Source: a virus. Taken from it: a DNA stretch of 60,358 nt. Position numbers and translations under genes: made by a program. The notes under the pieces are model-generated. The model was given only the letters and a program-made list of their open reading frames with translations. It searched no databases and was not told the origin of the DNA. This document shows, one piece after another, positions 2,189 to 55,365 of this stretch. The stretch lies in the IMG/VR virus record IMGVR_UViG_3300020439_001546, positions 1-60,358 of that record; one strand, written 5' to 3'. Each line of letters starts with the position of its first letter. The first letter of the stretch is position 1.

Positions 2189-3311
2189 CGAGTTCCTCTT
2201 TCATAGTATTTCCAACTTGCTCAAAGTCAAAATCCTTGATGATTGACAGACCATCTTTTTGCGATGATTGCTCGTAACGTACTGGATTGTCTAACCAACT
2301 ACTGTAAGCGGTACGCATAGCAGATGTAACTTGTTTATGGCACGGGACAAAGTAGAAATCCTTTCCGAGATTTGTTTCTCCAGATCTATTTTTCTGAGTA
2401 TAACATTGAAACGCACCACTTATTAAGTTTTGTGAAGTCCTTTTTAGAGAGGTTGTGACCACATCTTTGTTCCCGCCAATATCGCTTGCTATCACGCTAC
2501 TACCAAATGCGTATGCATCTAGTACATGTATGGGCCAAGCATTTCCAGCGTCTAAACTAATAAAACAATCTCCATATTTATGAACAGTATTAAAATTGTC
2601 CATAGTATCGGATACGTCCGCCACAATGGTATCTTTACAGTACCTAGAAATATCTTTGTTTAATCCCAACTGACTTTTGACATCTATTGCAACTGAGTCA
2701 ATTTGCTGCTGCGTTAGGGCGTTTGAAACTAGGGTTAAGCAGACCTTTTCGGACTCATCAAACTCTGAATGAAAGCATGTTAAAATATGCCTAAGCTGGT
2801 TTATGTCAGATCCTATAATGGCGTAAAACTTAAACTTTCCTACGTTTTGAGGTACGGTTATATCCCTTGTTTGTTGCTGTGCTTTTTTAGCATCAAACGC
2901 AAACGGCACACACTTAAGTTCGGGCTTCTTCTCAATACCCGCAAAGGCGTTTTTCAAAAATTCTAAATTCTGAGTATTTGGAAGCCAGATCTCATCCAAC
3001 AAGCTCATTTTTTCTACCGCAGATGTATGACCTAGTTGCACAAAGTTTGTACCTAAAATTCCGACATTCTTTTTAAACTTGGACGTTCCAACAATATGTT
3101 CTGGGAAAACATGCTGTATACAGACATCTCGATCTTCCAGAGATTTTGACTCCAATGATTTAAACTTGGCATCAAGCTGCTTACTCTTGCCCATTGATAT
3201 GCCTTGACAGGCAACGTCTACGCCTGCTTTGTCTAGGGCTAGTATGTTGTTCCTTGTTATTTCGCCCCAATCACTATCTTCTTTATAATATCCTATATAT
3301 AATACCTTCAT
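2181..3311 (-). CDS. Glycosyltransferase-like protein (GT-B type)
   Basis: A 376-residue protein. It starts MKVLYIGYYKEDSDWG with an early beta strand and glycine turn like the N-terminus of GT-B enzymes. Around residues 255-300, CFISLDAGNAWPIHVLDAYAFGSSVIASDIGGN matches the donor-binding region of GT4-type enzymes (exxAxG..VIasdigG). It overlaps both neighbours by 4-8 nt and sits in a run of glycosyltransferases. The exact family and substrate cannot be read from the sequence. Confidence 0.75.
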   Translation of the reverse strand: MKVLYIGYYKEDSDWGEITRNNILALDKAGVDVACQGISMGKSKQLDAKFKSLESKSLEDRDVCIQHVFPEHIVGTSKFKKNVGILGTNFVQLGHTSAVEKMSLLDEIWLPNTQNLEFLKNAFAGIEKKPELKCVPFAFDAKKAQQQTRDITVPQNVGKFKFYAIIGSDINQLRHILTCFHSEFDESEKVCLTLVSNALTQQQIDSVAIDVKSQLGLNKDISRYCKDTIVADVSDTMDNFNTVHKYGDCFISLDAGNAWPIHVLDAYAFGSSVIASDIGGNKDVVTTSLKRTSQNLISGAFQCYTQKNRSGETNLGKDFYFVPCHKQVTSAMRTAYSSWLDNPVRYEQSSQKDGLSIIKDFDFEQVGNTMKEELDA

Positions 3312-4670: not shown

Positions 4671-5418
4671 TCATCTTCTCCAATTTTTCTCTCATGGTTT
4701 TATCGTCACAACCTAATTTTTTTCTACCGGCATCACCATTAATGTAAATATTTGGTAAGTGGTGAATAAGGTTTTCGTCAAACTCTGAGATGCATATTAA
4801 TTTTTTAAGGAAACAGTTTTCGTATATCTCTGTGTTGACCCTGCATTTATAACTATATCGGTTTTTTTCTGTTATGAACTGCGTGATATCATATAGGTGC
4901 ATAATATCTAGTAATTTTTGCTTTGATATCAAGAAAGATGCTTGATGGACATTAGTGAAGTGGGCGAACTTTTTACCTTCATAAATTTCTACGGAATCAA
5001 AATCCCAGTCGTAGTGGGCGTGAAGGGCAGGATACCATTTACCTTGTTCGTTTTCTTCGTATTGAATTAAGCCGCTAATCTTATTCGAGGGTAAAACCTG
5101 TTCGTATTCTATATACTTGTCTAGATGGCTTTCCTTCCATAGGTGGTCATTTTCGGAAAAAATTATGTAGTCATACTTGTAAGCTTTGTCGGCAATAGTA
5201 GTTCTACACGTTAAAGGTAGAAGCTCATAGTCATCCATGCTAATCAGTATTTCTTTAACGCCCTGTATACCTAGCTCTATATTTGTATGGACAAAGATAT
5301 CAACGTCGTATTTTTTAAACGACTGAAACTCTGACACTACTTGCTTGAGATAGGATATTTGTTCGTCGCCGTAGTTTACTAAGACAACTAGTAGGGACTT
5401 ATTTCCAGTACTCATAGA
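4663..5418 (-). CDS. GT-A-like glycosyltransferase
   Basis: I chose the ATG at 5418 (MSTGNKSLLVVLVNYG) because AAGGA lies just upstream. An alternative ATG at 5436 would overlap the epimerase gene more. The protein has ~251 residues. VVLVNYG at the N-terminus and YDYIIFSENDHLW around residue 100 look like the first strand and the D-x-D-like metal site (here ENDH) of GT-A glycosyltransferases. The middle part contains HQASFLISKQKLLD. It lies in the glycan operon; substrate unknown. Confidence 0.7.
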   Translation of the reverse strand, partial: SMSTGNKSLLVVLVNYGDEQISYLKQVVSEFQSFKKYDVDIFVHTNIELGIQGVKEILISMDDYELLPLTCRTTIADKAYKYDYIIFSENDHLWKESHLDKYIEYEQVLPSNKISGLIQYEENEQGKWYPALHAHYDWDFDSVEIYEGKKFAHFTNVHQASFLISKQKLLDIMHLYDITQFITEKNRYSYKCRVNTEIYENCFLKKLICISEFDENLIHHLPNIYINGDAGRKKLGCDDKTMREKLEKMNG

Positions 5419-6400
5419 TTCCTTTGGTAACTTCATAGTCCATAAGTTTCTGAGATCTTTGTGGTTGGGACATAGCCCACTTGAACATCATGTCGATCAA
5501 ATCCTCCAGATCTGTTTCGTCTACAAAACCAAGAAGATCCTTAGCTAAGTCGTGACTACAATGAGCGTGCTTAACTTCGTGGCGAGGTTCTACATACTGT
5601 TTTTCTGCTTTGAAGCCGTTTTTAAGGGCGACTCTTTGCACTGTATCAGCAAGCTCGTTGATCGAATATGTTTTGTCGGCACCTAAATTAAAGAGGTGTC
5701 CGCTGAACGAATCAATAAGTTTTTCAAACGGTGCCATGTAGTACTTCACATCGGAAAACGCACGGGTTTGCTCGCCATCACCATAAATTAACATAGGCTC
5801 TCCAGCCAACACTCGACGAATAAAAATGCCAGCTACGTTACGATACTTGTCCCAAATGTTTTGGTAAATACCCACGATATTGTGGGGTCTAATAATAGTA
5901 TATTCGAGACCGTGTTGCTCGTGTGCAACCTTAATGTCTTGCTCCACACAGTATTTTGCTATACCGTATGGATCTATAGGTGCGGGTGCCATTCTCTCAA
6001 AAAATGGAGGATGGTGACGACCGTAAGTAGCCATTGAAGATGTAAAGATTAATTTTGAGTCAGAGTTGATGCAAGCATTAATGACGTTGGCACTGGCTAG
6101 TATGTTATTGGTGTAATTAAAGTGTCTTATGAAGGGCGATAAACCTTCTGCTGCGTATGCTGCAAAGTGATAACAAGCAATCGGTTTTTCTGTCTCAAAG
6201 ATATGGTTTAGTCTATTTAGAGATTCAGCCTCAGATAAGTTAAACGGGCAGAACTCAAAGTTCTCATGGTCGGCCAGATAATCTTCGTAGCCACCGCTAA
6301 GGTCATCAATACCAACAACCTTATAACCAGCTGACAGTAGGTGCCTGCTAAAGTGGGCACCAAGTAATCCTGCACAACCAGTAATCACAACCGATCTCAT
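5399..6400 (-). CDS. NAD-dependent nucleotide-sugar epimerase (SDR extended, GalE-like)
   Basis: The start is placed at ATG 6400 (MRSVVITGCAGLLGAHF), which overlaps the upstream TGA as ATGA; an in-frame ATG at 6448 would put 16 unrelated residues ahead of the Rossmann strand. The 333-residue protein shows the GxxGxxG nucleotide site near the N-terminus, VGIDDLSGG after beta2, FTSSMATYG, then PYGIAKY with catalytic Tyr and Lys, and IIRPHNIVG. This is the UDP-glucose 4-epimerase/dehydratase superfamily. It probably supplies a sugar donor for the neighbouring glycosyltransferases. The specific sugar cannot be deduced. Confidence 0.9.
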   Translation of the reverse strand: MRSVVITGCAGLLGAHFSRHLLSAGYKVVGIDDLSGGYEDYLADHENFEFCPFNLSEAESLNRLNHIFETEKPIACYHFAAYAAEGLSPFIRHFNYTNNILASANVINACINSDSKLIFTSSMATYGRHHPPFFERMAPAPIDPYGIAKYCVEQDIKVAHEQHGLEYTIIRPHNIVGIYQNIWDKYRNVAGIFIRRVLAGEPMLIYGDGEQTRAFSDVKYYMAPFEKLIDSFSGHLFNLGADKTYSINELADTVQRVALKNGFKAEKQYVEPRHEVKHAHCSHDLAKDLLGFVDETDLEDLIDMMFKWAMSQPQRSQKLMDYEVTKGIYEYWK

Positions 6401-8443: not shown

Positions 8444-10003
8444 TTATATTTCATGAATTTTATTAACAATAAATGAGTTATCCTTCGACACATCTCCACA
8501 AAGTAGCAGGTTGTTACCTTCGTAAATTATGTACTGATATTTGTCTCGGGTTTCTGGGAAAACAACTACACTATCTAGGCAACAGGTATTGTCTTCAATT
8601 GTGAGGAACGCCATTTTGCGACCCTTTGTTTTGCCCTTTTTAACTGTAGTGGTAGCAACTCTATTGACATTTGCAGCAATACACAAGTCCTTGCCGGTTT
8701 TACCGTTTAGAACATCTTTGCATAAAGTGTTTGCGATTGATGTATCCGCTGCGTCGATACGGGACAAAGATACTGGGCATCCAAGAAACTTGTTTTCCTG
8801 CTCAATGATCCAAGCTGGGTCATCTTCTAAGCTGTAGGGGGGATTGTTGATGAAGTTGGCTTCATTACTAACAATCTGAGATCTATCAGTCTTGCTAGTA
8901 CCTCCACCCTCTTTCTTGGTCGGAGCTAAATCTATAAAACAATCATACAGATTTGTCCACCTCTTTTTAGGGTAGTTGTTAATCACCCAATTAGTTTCGG
9001 CTTTAGTTAGCTCTCTAAAGATTAAATACTCGTATAAAGCCTTATTTCTGGACGTGTTTGTAGCCTTTGTAGAAAAGAACCCAATAGAGCACAACGCTTT
9101 GAAAGCTGTTGCATTGATCTTTGGTGAAAGATAGACAATAATGTCCATCCATGAGAAATCTCTTGGGGACTTGTTGATCTCTTCAGAGGTTTCCTCAATA
9201 GCCTTGATAACCTTATCTCCAGTCACACCAGTAAGAGATTTAATATCTTTGACTCCAAAATAAATACCATCTTCTTGAATGTTAAACTTAACACCAAAAG
9301 AAGAAATCTTTGGTATCTTAACCTCAAGATCAAATAGCTTGGCCTCTGACACTAATTCGTAAATTTCTTGATGTGGGTCTTGCTTCTCATTCGCATAGTA
9401 TAGGTAGGACAAAAAGAACTCTTTAGTGTTATTCGCCTTATACCAAGCAGACCAGAATGAGTTGACAGCATAAGCTACCGCATGGGACTTGTTAAAGGAA
9501 TATCTGGATGACTTCTCAATCCAGCCAAAAATTTCGGATGCGGTATCTCCGTCAACCAAACCAACTGATTCACAACCATCAACAAAGTCGCCCCTAATTG
9601 AAGCCATGAGTTCAGCATCTTTCTTACCAATGGCTTTACGCAAATCGTCCGCTTTCTTCAGGTCAAATCCAGCCAGCTTTTGAGCTATAAGCATGGACTG
9701 CTCTTGATACACAAGAACTCCGTAGGTAGGCTTCAGTATATTTTCTAGCGATTCGTGAAGATAGCTAACTTCTTCTTCTTTGTGTTTTCTATCTACGAAA
9801 CGCTGAGTCATAGACTTGCCGTCAATAATAGCTTTCAAACAACCCGGCCTAATTAGTGCAATAAGTGCGGCTAATTCCTCAAGGTTCTCTGGTGCTAACC
9901 TCTTGGACCAAGCACGCCCAAGATTGCTTTCTAGTTGGAACACTCCTTTGGTAAGACCGTCTTTGAAGAGATTCCAAGTTTTCTCATCTGTATAATCAAT
10001 CAT
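8444..10003 (-). CDS. dnaE: DNA polymerase III alpha subunit, C-terminal half (split gene)
   Basis: A 519-residue protein matching DnaE from just after the palm to the OB domain. It starts MIDYTDEKTWNLFKDG, then GVFQLES near residue 20, ALIALIRPG, YGVLVYQEQSM, AIGKKDAELM and FNKSHAVAYA near residue 173 (fingers), a helix-hairpin-helix-like region with FGVKDIKSLTGV, and an OB-like segment near the C-terminus (KMAFLTIEDNTCCLDSVVVFP). The tau-binding C-terminal tail of bacterial DnaE seems to be absent. The catalytic aspartates are in the other half, encoded at 10686-12308. Both parts must assemble to form a polymerase (inference). Confidence 0.92.
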   Translation of the reverse strand: MIDYTDEKTWNLFKDGLTKGVFQLESNLGRAWSKRLAPENLEELAALIALIRPGCLKAIIDGKSMTQRFVDRKHKEEEVSYLHESLENILKPTYGVLVYQEQSMLIAQKLAGFDLKKADDLRKAIGKKDAELMASIRGDFVDGCESVGLVDGDTASEIFGWIEKSSRYSFNKSHAVAYAVNSFWSAWYKANNTKEFFLSYLYYANEKQDPHQEIYELVSEAKLFDLEVKIPKISSFGVKFNIQEDGIYFGVKDIKSLTGVTGDKVIKAIEETSEEINKSPRDFSWMDIIVYLSPKINATAFKALCSIGFFSTKATNTSRNKALYEYLIFRELTKAETNWVINNYPKKRWTNLYDCFIDLAPTKKEGGGTSKTDRSQIVSNEANFINNPPYSLEDDPAWIIEQENKFLGCPVSLSRIDAADTSIANTLCKDVLNGKTGKDLCIAANVNRVATTTVKKGKTKGRKMAFLTIEDNTCCLDSVVVFPETRDKYQYIIYEGNNLLLCGDVSKDNSFIVNKIHEI

Positions 10004-10014
10004 TTAATTCAACT

Positions 10015-10689
10015 CTAAACAAAAAGTTTACCGTCAGCAAAAGCCTTTTCAAATTTCATATTTCTGTATACCGCACGTCGAGACTTTTGCAATTTAATAA
10101 ATATGTTGGCGGTATCTTTAACGTCCTGTAGGGCGTCGTGAGCATTTTCACTTGATAACCCCATTCGCTCTCTCAAGCTGTCCATACTAATCGACTTGAC
10201 ATTAGGGTCACCCTCAGTCCATAGCCATACGTCATCCATAACATCAATCTTATAAATTTGATGGAATAACTTTTGGCACTGTCTTTTGTCGTCGTATGGG
10301 CCATATTCCTTACACAAACGATTAACGATATGCATATCATAACCTATGATATTAAAGCCTGCTGGGACTGGAGCGAAGTAGGGAGTACCTTTCCAGTTGT
10401 ACTTGTTTACAAAAGCACAAAACTTTTTCCACACACCTTTCGGTAGCGGTGCTTTAGCAAGCTTTTCTCTGGTTTGCCCCGTGACTTTTAACGCACCTTC
10501 TTCTAGTGGGTCAACACCAGCGGCTAGAGCCTTATCATCATCAATAATCGGACGCATCATGCTATTAAATTCGCCCTTCAATCTAAAATTTCTTCCGTCT
10601 AACGCGATGGCAGCAATCTGTGTCGGTTGACACCGCATAGGATTTCTACCGCCCGTTTCAAAGTCAAAAACAATTATGTCACGATTCAT
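10015..10689 (-). CDS. DEDDh 3'-5' exonuclease (proofreading, DnaQ-like)
   Basis: A 224-residue protein. IIVFDFETGG gives the ExoI motif with DxE, FNIIGYDMHIVNRL the ExoII motif, and HDALQDVKDT near residue 185 the ExoIII motif with catalytic His and Asp of the DEDDh type. It is the expected proofreading partner of a C-family polymerase. The gene sits exactly between the two halves of that polymerase, with an ATGA overlap to the N-half gene and 11 nt before the C-half gene, so all three should be made together. Confidence 0.9.
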   Translation of the reverse strand: MNRDIIVFDFETGGRNPMRCQPTQIAAIALDGRNFRLKGEFNSMMRPIIDDDKALAAGVDPLEEGALKVTGQTREKLAKAPLPKGVWKKFCAFVNKYNWKGTPYFAPVPAGFNIIGYDMHIVNRLCKEYGPYDDKRQCQKLFHQIYKIDVMDDVWLWTEGDPNVKSISMDSLRERMGLSSENAHDALQDVKDTANIFIKLQKSRRAVYRNMKFEKAFADGKLFV

Positions 10690-12308
10690 ACTAACTCCTT
10701 AATCATCATTAGTTTATCCAAAAGGTTAATGCCTAAAACATCAAACTTTACATGTCCGAGAGCCTCTAGGTCGGCCATTTCAAGACCAGCGATCTTCTCT
10801 GTTCCGCTTTTAGGGTTAACCATAGGGCAAACTTTATACAACTCATCAGCAGAGATAACCACACCCGCAGCGTGTTTACCTTGTGTTTTAAATGTACCTT
10901 CAATATCAATTGCTTGTTGGAAGTATTCTGAATAGTCTCCCTCTAAGTATCCAGCATCATTCACAAAACAATAGTCACGCAAGTCGTCTGGATTGTTTAG
11001 TAAAGCCCACTTGATGATAGAGCGATCCTCTTCGTCCATCTCTGCAAGTTGATCGGAAATAGCTGCCTCGTCAGGAATAGACTTGGTGATTTCGTTCATC
11101 TCGCTAAAACCGCAGGCATTATTAACACGTAAGACTTCTTTGAGGGCACTACGTCCCTGTAGTCTACCAAACGTGAGCATCTGACTAACATTGTTTTGTC
11201 CATACTTATCTTTAAGGTATGAGATAATTTCATCACGCTTACCACCCGGTACATCCATGTCAATATCTGGAAGTGAAATGTGATCTTCTGTGTTTCGTCC
11301 AGCGTTGTAGAATCTTTCAAACAGTAGGTCAAACTCGATAGGATCAATCTGAGTGATTCCAATAAGGTAAGAGATTAGGCAACCAGCGGCAGATCCTCTT
11401 CCCGGTCCAACAGTCCAACCTTGAGAGACGCAGTAGTTAATAACATCCCAAACAATTAGAAAGTAACCAAACAATTTAGCTTCTTCGATAACCGCATACT
11501 CAGATCTAAAACGGTCGCCGTAAACTTTCTTAAGCTCATCATCTTTAATTTTATGAGATAATAGCTTCTGCCAGCCCTCCCTAGCTAAGGTTCTTAGATA
11601 ATCTTTTTGGGTTTCTCCATTTGGGGTTTGGAACTTTGGAAGTATTGGTTGACTCAAGATATTATAGTTTTCACACTTATTAAAAATCTCGTCAAACGTA
11701 TCCATCGAAGGATCTTCTACCAGTATCTTGGAAATCTCACTTTTATCTTTCAAATAGAAATCATTAGACTCAAAGAACACGCTGTTTTCTACAGGCTCTC
11801 TATTAGCTAAAGCCTTTTGTACTTTTGGCATAGTTGTCTTCATTTTAGAACACAAAAGAATCCTATGCAATGGTGCCTGATTTTTATTAGTATAATAGAT
11901 ATCCATAAAAGAGTCGGTCTTTGCGTAGAAGTCGTCGCCTTTAATTGGTGACACAGACTCACTTTTGGCAACAGAAATCAAGTTACCTTTACCGCATAGC
12001 CTGATTAGAGACCCGTTGTCTACGTCTCCCTCAGCAGAAATGGAAGACACGATCTGAATAAGGTCTAGCCATCCATCTTTATTCTTAGCAAATAGTGTGA
12101 AGTCGTCAAAAGCACAACCGATAATTGGTTTGATGTTATTTTTGACGCAAGCCTTATAGAAAGTGACGGCACCAGATATCGACTTGTAGTCAGCAATACC
12201 ACAAGCGGAATAGGAATTTTCAGAACATTTGCTCGCTAGTTCTGTTGGCTTGGAAAAGCCTCTCTGTAAAGAGTAGTGTGTGAAATTACACAATGGGAAC
12301 CACTTCAT
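10686..12308 (-). CDS. dnaE: DNA polymerase III alpha subunit, N-terminal half (split gene)
   Basis: A 540-residue protein. Residues 1-70 are a PHP-like domain (FTHYSLQRGFSKPTELA...GIADYKSISGAVTFYKA...IKPIIG) in which the HxH and other metal ligands of active PHP domains are not conserved. The polymerase core follows: GPGRGSAAGCLISYLIG near 300, LPDIDMDV near 349 with the two catalytic Asp, and KFDVLGINLL near 521 with the third Asp. The protein then stops at IKELV. Compared with E. coli DnaE, only a short linker seems to be missing before the second half begins. No intein or frameshift signature is visible. Confidence 0.93.
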   Translation of the reverse strand: MKWFPLCNFTHYSLQRGFSKPTELASKCSENSYSACGIADYKSISGAVTFYKACVKNNIKPIIGCAFDDFTLFAKNKDGWLDLIQIVSSISAEGDVDNGSLIRLCGKGNLISVAKSESVSPIKGDDFYAKTDSFMDIYYTNKNQAPLHRILLCSKMKTTMPKVQKALANREPVENSVFFESNDFYLKDKSEISKILVEDPSMDTFDEIFNKCENYNILSQPILPKFQTPNGETQKDYLRTLAREGWQKLLSHKIKDDELKKVYGDRFRSEYAVIEEAKLFGYFLIVWDVINYCVSQGWTVGPGRGSAAGCLISYLIGITQIDPIEFDLLFERFYNAGRNTEDHISLPDIDMDVPGGKRDEIISYLKDKYGQNNVSQMLTFGRLQGRSALKEVLRVNNACGFSEMNEITKSIPDEAAISDQLAEMDEEDRSIIKWALLNNPDDLRDYCFVNDAGYLEGDYSEYFQQAIDIEGTFKTQGKHAAGVVISADELYKVCPMVNPKSGTEKIAGLEMADLEALGHVKFDVLGINLLDKLMMIKELV

Positions 12309-43212: not shown

Positions 43213-43241
43213 ATTATAGTCTCGGTTTGAGTAAAAGTCAA
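43213..43241 (-). promoter_or_regulatory. Sigma70-type promoter
   Basis: Minus strand TTGACT, 17 nt, TATAAT, with AAGAACCC upstream of the -35 (related to the TCTAAAGAACC box of other promoters). It just touches the end of the deaminase gene and drives the coiled-coil and ssb genes. Confidence 0.8.
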
Positions 43242-43783
43242 CTGGGTTCTTCATTTTTTTTAAAAGTTTCTAGAATACATTCCAGTACATCTGTGCCTAG
43301 CGAGCTTTTGGGTATATACTTTAGCTCCAACTGGTCACTAAGTAGTTTAAGGATTGTGTCATATCTCTCGGAATATATCTCCATTTTCGGTGATGAGATA
43401 TCTGAGAAGATAACTTTCTTAATCCCACACTGGTGAAGCATTTGCACACACGATAAACACGGAACCGCTGTTACATAACACTCTGAATCAATCGTTGATA
43501 CGCCGTTTTTAGCGGCATTATAAACAGCGTTAGCTTCGGCATGTATCATAAACGGATACTTGTCGGGTCTTTTCCTAGGTAGTACTGAGTCGTCTATACC
43601 TGAAATAAAACCATTGTAACCTGTCGATATAATTCTTTTGTTCTTAACTAATACGGCCCCACATTGTGTTTGTAGGTCATGACTTCTTTTAGACCATAAC
43701 GCCGCACTTAGAATAAATGAAGTCTCCCAACTGCTAGGCTTATGACTCTGTAGGATTAGGTTAGACAATTTTCTTTTTATCAT
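43238..43783 (-). CDS. dCMP deaminase-like zinc enzyme
   Basis: A 181-residue protein. FMIHAEANAVYNAAKNG has the HAE metal site, and TAVPCLSCVQMLHQCGIKKVIFSD the PCxxC site of the cytidine/deoxycytidylate deaminase superfamily. CGAVLVKNKRIISTGYNG precedes them as expected. It converts dCMP to dUMP, the substrate of the ThyX encoded at 45242-45919. Confidence 0.88.
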   Translation of the reverse strand: MIKRKLSNLILQSHKPSSWETSFILSAALWSKRSHDLQTQCGAVLVKNKRIISTGYNGFISGIDDSVLPRKRPDKYPFMIHAEANAVYNAAKNGVSTIDSECYVTAVPCLSCVQMLHQCGIKKVIFSDISSPKMEIYSERYDTILKLLSDQLELKYIPKSSLGTDVLECILETFKKNEEPS

Positions 43784-44196
43784 TAGTCCTCGTCCTGTTT
43801 TTTGAACATATCCCTAATCTTCTTAGGTATGTTTTTTGCTACAGTCTCTCCTTCTTTGGTTAGATGATAATAAAAGTTACCATCCTCTCCTATCAACTGA
43901 TCCACTAAACCCTCCTTCATCAGTTCAATTAAGATTGCAGTGGTATTGTCTTCTTGATACTTTTTGGCTTTTTTCATAAAGTCTAGAAGTTGAGGTTCCT
44001 TGCCCACGTTAAACTCAAGCACGTCGTACACCACGTCATAATGCTTTTTTTTAGGTGTCAGTTTGTCTAGCTCGTCTGCGTAATTCAATGCCCGATCAAG
44101 ATCGTAATAGACTCCTTGAGGTTCAATGGAAAAAGACTTACCGGATTTAGTGGTAAAAGACTCAAACGATACTAGAACGTACACCGTATTATTCAT
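43783..44196 (-). CDS. Hypothetical protein with winged-helix-like C-terminus
   Basis: The start is taken at ATG 44196 (MNNTVYVLVSFESF); the longer frame begins at 44241 inside the upstream gene. The ~137-residue protein has a beta-rich start, a middle acidic part, and LIELMKEGLVDQLIGEDGNFYYHLTKEGETVAKNI, a winged-helix-like pattern. It could bind DNA. The choice of start is uncertain because the Shine-Dalgarno site is weak. Confidence 0.55.
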   Translation of the reverse strand: MNNTVYVLVSFESFTTKSGKSFSIEPQGVYYDLDRALNYADELDKLTPKKKHYDVVYDVLEFNVGKEPQLLDFMKKAKKYQEDNTTAILIELMKEGLVDQLIGEDGNFYYHLTKEGETVAKNIPKKIRDMFKKQDED

Positions 44197-44407
44197 GGAG
44201 CTTTCTGATCCTTTGAACAGCTGAGATTCTATCGGTAGCATCTACGTAGTTATCTAATGCTTGATCTAAATTCTGAAGGAAATCGCCCGTAGAGTGATCT
44301 CCAATACCAACAGCCTTTTCTAGTAGTAGGCTAAACTGTAATAGGGAAGCCTCTACGTCCGACTCTGCCTTTTTTTCCAAATAATTCAACGCTTTTTCTT
44401 TACTCAT
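44189..44407 (-). CDS. Small helical protein, 72 aa
   Basis: Helical, acidic: EKALNYLEKKAESDVEASLLQFSLLLEKAVGIGD, then LDQALDNYVDATDRISAVQRI. Four-nt overlap with the upstream gene. Not recognised. Confidence 0.55.
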   Translation of the reverse strand: MSKEKALNYLEKKAESDVEASLLQFSLLLEKAVGIGDHSTGDFLQNLDQALDNYVDATDRISAVQRIRKLHE

Positions 44408-54871: not shown

Positions 54872-54961
54872 ATGATGAGGTTAATCGCCCTGATGATTCT
54901 CAGCCCGTTGCACCTTTAAGCAACCGAACACTTAGTGAGAACAGCGGTGTCTCCAACAATT

Positions 54962-55003
54962 ATTATATTCAATCTTTCGGTATTTGTCAACCGGTTCTTT
55001 AGA
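54962..55003 (-). promoter_or_regulatory. Consensus sigma70-type promoter with TCTAAAGA box for tRNA genes
   Basis: Minus strand TCTAAAGA, 5 nt, TTGACA, 17 nt (AATACCGAAAGATTGAA), TATAAT: perfect hexamers. It fires into the tRNA-Ile/Arg/Leu array. The tmRNA terminator is 10 nt upstream. Confidence 0.92.
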
Positions 55004-55012
55004 TAATTAGAT

Positions 55013-55045
55013 AAAAAAAGCCAGCTTTGGTAACAAGGTGCTGGC
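55013..55045 (-). terminator. Rho-independent terminator of the tRNA-Glu/tmRNA transcript
   Basis: Minus-strand stem GCCAGC / GCTGGC with a 14-nt loop followed by TTTTTTT. Confidence 0.93.
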
Positions 55046-55291
55046 AAGACCCCGTGACCTACGAATAGGTCAGTCGGCCACCTAAGCGGCCATTGCGTAA
55101 TTCTCTACGCCATTTAAAGTTGTGATAGATTTTTAACGTAGCCCTTCTATCAACTACGACATGCAGTCATTACATCCACAACCAGTCGAACCCAGATCGC
55201 CCCCGTAGTTTGGTAAGTGGAGGCGGGGAGAATCGAACTCCCGTCCTGCATTGATTCAGCAATAACATCTACATGCTTATGCCCGAAGGCA
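55046..55291 (-). ncRNA. ssrA: Circularly permuted two-piece tmRNA
   Basis: Transcribed order is permuted. First comes the acceptor piece (to 55218) with AAGCATGTAG, T-arm GGGAG TTCGATT CTCCC, acceptor strand CGCCTCC and discriminator A at 55218. Then a 13-nt spacer (55205-55217). Then the 5' piece begins GGGGGCG at 55204, with GGGTTCGAC (TTCGAC hallmark). GGGGGCG pairs with CGCCTCC over 7 bp. A P2-like 8-bp helix joins 55159-55166 to 55269-55276. The tag frame ends in NGVENYAMAA (55114-55082), close to the E. coli tag end NYALAA. A TTCG hairpin (55280-55291) precedes the acceptor piece; another (55056-55071) and the terminator follow. Exact mature ends are not known. Confidence 0.88.
55082..55114 (-). 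other. tmRNA tag-peptide reading frame (C-terminal part)
   Basis: Codons AAT GGC GTA GAG AAT TAC GCA ATG GCC GCT TAG give NGVENYAMAA-stop. The C-terminal AA fits protease recognition of tmRNA tags. The resume codon is unclear; a TAA at 55133-55135 limits the tag to at most 16 residues. Confidence 0.8.
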
Positions 55292-55292
55292 G

Positions 55293-55365
55293 TACCCCGT
55301 AGGAGAATTGAACTCCTGTCTTCAGGATGAAAACCTGATGTCCTAGTCCACTAGACGAACGGGGC
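55293..55365 (-). tRNA. tRNA-Glu (anticodon TTC)
   Basis: Acceptor GCCCCGT / ACGGGGT, D-arm GTCTAGTGGACTAGGAC, anticodon loop TTTTCAT with TTC, T-arm AGGAG TTCAATT CTCCT. It reads GAA. It sits one nt before the tmRNA in the same transcript and may be cut from it by host enzymes. Confidence 0.93.

Follow-up and report, generated by a model that had tools for sequence, protein, structure and literature searches.

The DNA analysed here (the window) is a linear metagenomic virus contig of 60,358 bases from IMG/VR that represents an uncultured tailed phage, with genes for rIIA and rIIB homologues, a class Ia ribonucleotide reductase, a DnaB-like helicase and a UvdE endonuclease. On its minus strand, from 55291 to about 55018-55013, the Rfam match and the sequence reveal a complete permuted (two-piece) tmRNA gene, which sits 3' of a tRNA-Glu gene and runs in the same direction (Table 1). 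The acceptor half (55279-55218) is encoded upstream of the mRNA-like half (55204-55020), and CCA is absent from the DNA after A55218 as well as after all four phage tRNAs of the window. Elsewhere in the window, a DnaE-type DNA polymerase is encoded in two frames (8444-12308, minus strand), with a gene for an RNase_T exonuclease (10015-10689) in between.

Table 1. Features of the tmRNA locus and its surroundings in the window, tmRNA parts in the order of transcription
Feature	Positions	Strand	Basis and remarks
tRNA-Glu (UUC), directly upstream of tmRNA	55292-55365	-	ARAGORN, Rfam tRNA; CCA not encoded
Hairpin TGCC-TTCG-GGCA at 5' end of acceptor piece, then TAAG	55280-55291	-	sequence
Acceptor piece	55218-55279	-	RF04321 match, sequence
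P2 3' strand CATGTAG	55269-55275	-	sequence
T arm GGGAG-TTCGATT-CTCCC	55226-55242	-	sequence; T loop canonical in window
Acceptor 3' strand CGCCTCC	55219-55225	-	sequence
Discriminator A (A73)	55218	-	sequence
13-nt spacer, removal predicted	55205-55217	-	sequence
Acceptor 5' strand GGGGGCG, pairs with CGCCTCC including G3-U70	55198-55204	-	sequence; helix 1 pairing conserved
TTCGAC hallmark of tRNA-like domain	55185-55190	-	sequence; ATCGAC in many relatives
P2 5' strand CTGCATG, pairs with CATGTAG	55160-55166	-	helix 2 covariation
PK1: CGTAG/CTACG interleaved with TGATAGA/TCTATCA	55123-55158	-	helices 3 and 4, many double changes
Tag frame GGC GTA GAG AAT TAC GCA ATG GCC GCT TAG, GVENYAMAA-stop	55082-55111	-	sequence
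P5-like hairpin GGCC-GCTTAGGT-GGCC, tag stop codon in loop region	55076-55091	-	sequence, predicted fold
3' end of mRNA piece: CCTTGTTACC motif within GCCAGC/GCTGGC PK2-like helix, then seven T	55013-55053	-	helix 6 covaries
Consensus sigma-70 promoter TTGACA-17-TATAAT before tRNA-Ile/Arg/Leu unit	54962-54990	-	12/12 consensus positions
Slot 1: geneU 43783-44241 abutting dCMP deaminase 43238-43783, empty	43238-44241	-	tblastn synteny, Pfam PF00383

Gene architecture and model scores

Three main clades of bacteria, as well as mitochondria, are known to have permuted tmRNA genes. The window gene shares with them (RF04321 and the alpha (RF01849), beta and cyano (RF01851) types) the leading acceptor half, a short spacer, the tRNA-like domain, P2, PK1 and a tag frame; unlike the alpha, beta and cyano genes it is borne by a phage and scores below the beta cut-off. 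RF04321 matches 55276-55082 over the full model (1-213) with 82.6 bits against a cut-off of 47 (E 2.6e-14). The original prediction had proposed the older lineage models as a check, and here the outcome was divided: beta_tmRNA (RF01850) matches in full length (55315-55053), but with 66.7 bits it stays under its curated cut-off of 84, while the newer RF04321, a general model, passes. Relatives scored with beta_tmRNA likewise remain under 84 (46-72 bits), and, among the best clan members listed, one relative (L067) reaches 60.9 bits with alpha_tmRNA (cut-off 50). The window gene departs from the standard order of RF00023, in which the mRNA half comes first: its halves are reversed, and the region that leads from PK2 to the acceptor half is missing. 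ARAGORN can overlook permuted tmRNA genes, as it does in the window: its call there (tmRNA* with tag VGDTAVLTKCSVA) is spurious, the false tag stemming from the promoter and leader region at 54872-54990. It is correct on the 167-kb relative G018, where it reports the tag GVENYAMAA, and it gives the same tag for the relatives L037 and L054.

Most parts of the predicted architecture were recovered. The 13-nt separation of the halves, the 7-bp acceptor pairing, which is conserved in relatives, the T arm and the TTCGAC motif all stand as described, while P2, which had been given as a helix of 8 bp, is a block of 7 bp. The predicted tag end ENYAMAA-stop is likewise present, although the full tag is longer, with nine residues and GGC as resume codon. 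The hairpin with which the acceptor piece begins differs in several relatives (GCCCCGTTTGGGG, GTCCACTGTGGAC, TTCCGGTTCGCCGGAA), and the spacer between the halves ranges among relatives from 5 to about 600 nt. As for the terminator of its own that the gene had been credited with, a stem of six GC-type base pairs with a 14-nt loop, then seven T, is indeed found at about 55038-55013, but by alignment it is a conserved helix of the tmRNA and not an addition to it; the consensus terminator scanner, which admits loops up to 8, leaves this stem unlisted. Because seven T follow it, the final tmRNA helix probably doubles as terminator. The CCTTGTTACC motif recurs in the standard-order relatives G354 and G355 and in one cyano-type phage tmRNA, and in standard-order relatives the PK2-like element that holds it is not followed by a run of T.

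The sigma-70 promoter before the neighbouring tRNA unit occurs also in L038 and, slightly altered, in L033, and a leader of about 90 nt after it (promoter and leader together 54872-54990, minus strand) is common to the window and G018. The stretch from the promoter to tRNA-Ile (54872-54961) was considered as a further structured RNA and rejected, its fold being no better than those of shuffles (z 0.36). G018, a long relative of 166,833 bases, has the tRNA-Glu, the tmRNA, their neighbours and the tag as in the window. Cultured phages are only distantly related. The nearest cultured NrdA proteins are those of a pelagiphage and of cyanophages, whereas the nearest cultured terminases, compared with that of G018, belong to Microcystis and Bacillus phages (about 24-25% identity); a host assignment from nearest cultured proteins was given up, since the two point different ways. 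No full-length nucleotide match to the window tmRNA was found in 50,697 phage records, where even the best-matching places span about 12% of the query.

Conservation of helices and tag

Covariation was assessed over 42 named pairs in 7 helices, in an alignment of 16 tmRNAs (15 phage rows and one Spirochaetota copy) from which the spacer had been removed. Standard pairs occupy 92.7% of the helix cells, and the 68 double-sided changes compare with a shuffled mean of 23.6 (0/500 shuffles as high); when the partners are slid by 1-3 columns, pairing amounts to only 37-43% and double changes to at most 9. Helix 1, the acceptor stem, is fully paired in the relatives, P2, which joins the halves, is paired in 93.8% of cells, and PK1 and the T stem vary most yet keep their pairing. 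A compensating change in P2 is also seen in the standard-order relative G029 (CTGCATT/AATGTAG). Together with the RF04321 match, this covariation bears out the central claim of the original prediction, namely a complete, circularly permuted tmRNA encoded by a phage beside tRNA-Glu.

The acceptor stem of the window gene contains a G3-U70 pair, the identity pair for alanine. A scan in which this pair was no condition found it in all acceptor arms that look genuine; a second acceptor-arm search demanded the pair and therefore offers no independent evidence for it. The lone G-C at acceptor pair 3 in the covariation table (row L123) is probably due to a misplaced gap, as the GGGCCTG/CAGGTCC of this row keeps G3-U70. 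Four relatives (L210, L246, L070 and L222) have non-canonical T loops (GGCAGTA, AGCCATA) with T stem and G3-U70 kept, and thus not all members of the family need equal activity. With few exceptions the tags end in A-(L/M/I/V)-A-A. In the last three Ala codons of 26 distinct tags the entropy is 1.5-1.9 at position 3 and 0.24-0.47 at positions 1-2, most of the residual variation coming from row L123, which was read out of frame in this analysis and whose tag, read by eye, is DVENYALAA. The tag end is under coding-type selection.

A phage tmRNA family with both gene orders

The family was collected with queries from rIIA, dCMP deaminase and UvdE and with tmRNA patterns, and then with a covariance model of the mRNA half, and comprises about 40 uncultured phage contigs. 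Judged by the position of the pairing acceptor arm, 29 rows of the tree have the permuted and 10 the standard order, a count that omits the doubtful G394 and includes some identical sequences from different contigs. Six contigs to which the script assigned no order were classed by eye: G357 has a permuted arrangement and a paired spacer, the likewise permuted G358 and G380 have a long one, and G374 and the pair G386/G387 look standard. The standard-order relatives include G028/G029, G353, G354, G355, G363, G039 and G384; ARAGORN backs the order in G028/G029 (tag VEENFALAA), and four of them match RF00023 at 62-108 bits (G029 107.7, G354 106.4, G384 102.4, G039 61.9). The acceptor halves of the standard G029 and the permuted G371 share 91% identity, whereas that of G029 reaches no more than 79% with any bacterial tmRNA in the comparison; the mRNA half of G029 is 75% identical to that of G362 as against 59%, and the tag VEENFALAA is common to G029 and G371 (locus L112). 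Both gene orders thus exist within one phage tmRNA family, with homologous halves. A trans-split tmRNA had been considered, since at first no mRNA half was seen in G028/G029 and no acceptor half in G039; this idea was dropped because the mRNA-half model led to the counterparts close by, arranged in standard order. Pattern matches in four bacterial loci (L082, L083, L086 and L087) proved to be ordinary standard tmRNAs with GGGGGCGA downstream by chance.

The genes of the family occupy two slots, one between a small gene ('geneU') and the dCMP deaminase gene, and one behind or near tRNA-Glu, close to UvdE (the latter in the window, L033 and G018, by tblastn synteny). Some permuted and standard genes share the first slot beside the same dCMP deaminase gene: in the permuted L211, geneU (5175-5576) is followed by the mRNA half (5760-5943) and the deaminase gene (5968), and in the standard L196, geneU (2230-2685) by the mRNA half (3086-3246), the acceptor half and the deaminase gene (3458). 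In L037 tRNA-Glu and tmRNA lie together in this slot, and therefore the two may travel as one cassette. In the permuted G358 and G380 (L202 4441-4977; L278 155-739, minus strand) the spacer of about 600 nt holds an endonuclease VII/HNH-like gene (PHROG 3322, 1035), an arrangement that appears to resemble a mobile element in a removable segment. The long spacers of L067 and L201 end in inverted repeats (AGAAGCACACTA...TAGTGTGTTTCT), which would lengthen the precursor's acceptor stem.

Two-piece forms make up 53 of the 133 distinct tmRNA structures of phages published in a study of the Methylophilales phage Melnitz (PMC9004378), and the current tmRNA database contains 79 sequences from phages and 11,946 of the permuted type (PMC11915505). 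The expectation that it would be noteworthy to find the complete permuted form on a phage, the main novelty claim of the earlier work on this DNA, therefore falls, and two cultured phages add to this: unannotated permuted tmRNAs missed by ARAGORN are present in Achromobacter phage JWDelta (KF787094.1; L297 473-857; 95.8 bits) and Caulobacter phage CcrRogue (JX100814.1; L298 473-791; 88.2 bits). Like Melnitz and others, the window phage has a complete permuted tmRNA that likely aids translation in infection; unlike the Melnitz-type genes, it belongs to a different, uncultured lineage and shows no riboswitch match in the window. A manA-like RNA (L039 1232-1437; 54.1 bits, cut-off 55.2) was observed shortly upstream of another permuted phage tmRNA. 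Taken alone, the window gene is a further example of the known phage two-piece tmRNAs, while the family with both orders, of which we found no counterpart in the open-licence literature, looks new.

A locus with both arrangements was encountered in the Spirochaetota MAG CP070841.1 (G053; about 3277661-3278194; L096 1212-1745), where a single acceptor half lies between two mRNA halves. The standard tmRNA of this locus scores 169.7 bits with RF00023 (tag ADEALPVAA), and the second mRNA half, just downstream, forms the permuted arrangement (RF04321 73.6 bits, tag AESNLALAA) and is 69% identical to the phage family as against 58% to the first mRNA half. This is the only one of 149 sampled Spirochaetota genomes that passes the RF04321 cut-off. 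The locus is a possible INTERMEDIATE, the kind of intermediate that could link both orders, with the proviso that in a MAG a misassembly is possible. Prophage integration was considered as the origin of the double locus, but no integrase-like gene was recognised among the ORFs listed around it, which are mostly housekeeping genes.

Proposed function and history of the gene order

We regard the window locus, with a probability of roughly 0.85, as a working phage-encoded permuted tmRNA gene whose product is processed and charged by the host, delivered by SmpB and used for tagging, within a family that has both orders. The tRNA-Glu/tmRNA transcript would be cut by tRNA-processing enzymes of the host, the spacer removed and CCA added to A55218, with the acceptor stem and P2, whose pairing is shown by covariation, holding the two pieces together. 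Following the established identity rules, host alanyl-tRNA synthetase would charge the RNA via the conserved G3-U70, and host SmpB would bring it to stalled ribosomes; SmpB itself was not found in nine phage records of the group, up to 173 kb in length, while a bacterial control genome was positive. The tag, whose end is conserved as codons, would then be added and the product destroyed by host proteases. The phage would probably benefit because ribosomes are rescued as host mRNA is broken down in infection, a role that is plausible for the phage RNA.

The lack of SmpB in these phages would also suit an RNA whose main effect is not tagging but competition with the host's tmRNA, be it for SmpB or for alanyl-tRNA synthetase, so that rescue is blocked. 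Such a molecule has a model in mycobacteriophage DS6A, whose tmRNA consists of the tRNA-like domain only; an RNA of this type is reported to be a strong inhibitor of tmRNA that may act by titrating SmpB (PMC4131195). We nevertheless judge interference of this type improbable for the window gene, whose mRNA half is complete and in whose family tag codons and PK1, needless in a pure decoy, are under selection. A slimmer chance still attaches to a recently captured host gene that is functionless or decaying in the phage: its cassette moves between two slots and some close relatives are without a tmRNA match in the DNA available, yet the phage family forms one deep clade (98/91) apart from Spirochaetota and other permuted tmRNAs, with compensatory changes across it and coding-type conservation of the tag. 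The beta-type L088 (147 bits) falls outside this clade (98/91), as do the alpha and cyano examples of the tree, in which deep nodes are weak. Apart from this grouping, the phage family differs from the alpha, beta and cyano two-piece tmRNAs in having standard-order members as well.

How the two orders came to be mixed is answered differently by different trees. Of the two groups of standard rows, G029/G353/G354/G355/G363 (100/100) and G368/G384/G039-like, each best tmRNA tree places the former among permuted rows with moderate support (83/81 and 85/83; G029 alone at 98/98 in a smaller tree), as would follow if the order had changed more than once in the phage lineage, including a return from permuted to standard, via tandem or shared-acceptor intermediates like the Spirochaetota locus. 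A precedent for a further change of order in a permuted lineage is the mitochondrial tmRNA of Jakoba libera, described as re-permuted in a passage of the database article (PMC11915505); unlike this RNA, which is without a tag frame, both phage orders keep theirs. We hold repeated change tentatively, at somewhat under even odds. The topology tests on both genes were made once the first trees had been seen. A single clade of all permuted rows was not rejected by the tmRNA data (p-AU 0.32). The dCMP deaminase tree, in turn, interleaves permuted and standard carriers, rejecting a single permuted clade (p-AU 0.00016), and splits the first standard group (p-AU 0.019), a pattern suggesting that phages have exchanged tmRNA cassettes. 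Such exchange, combined with one old change from standard to permuted and neither repeats nor reversion, would also account for the mixture, and we give it an even chance, the position of the G029 group in the best tmRNA trees being the evidence against it. Had the ancestor been permuted, those standard genes that have a longer middle region would need to have won it back, an argument in favour of a standard ancestor; with cassette exchange this difficulty does not arise.

The closely related permuted and standard genes of this family let one ask how a one-RNA gene turns into a two-piece gene and whether it can revert, and the virus group may show how such swaps in tmRNA genes arise. If the order has indeed changed repeatedly, phages would be a place to watch the permutation of RNA genes in progress.
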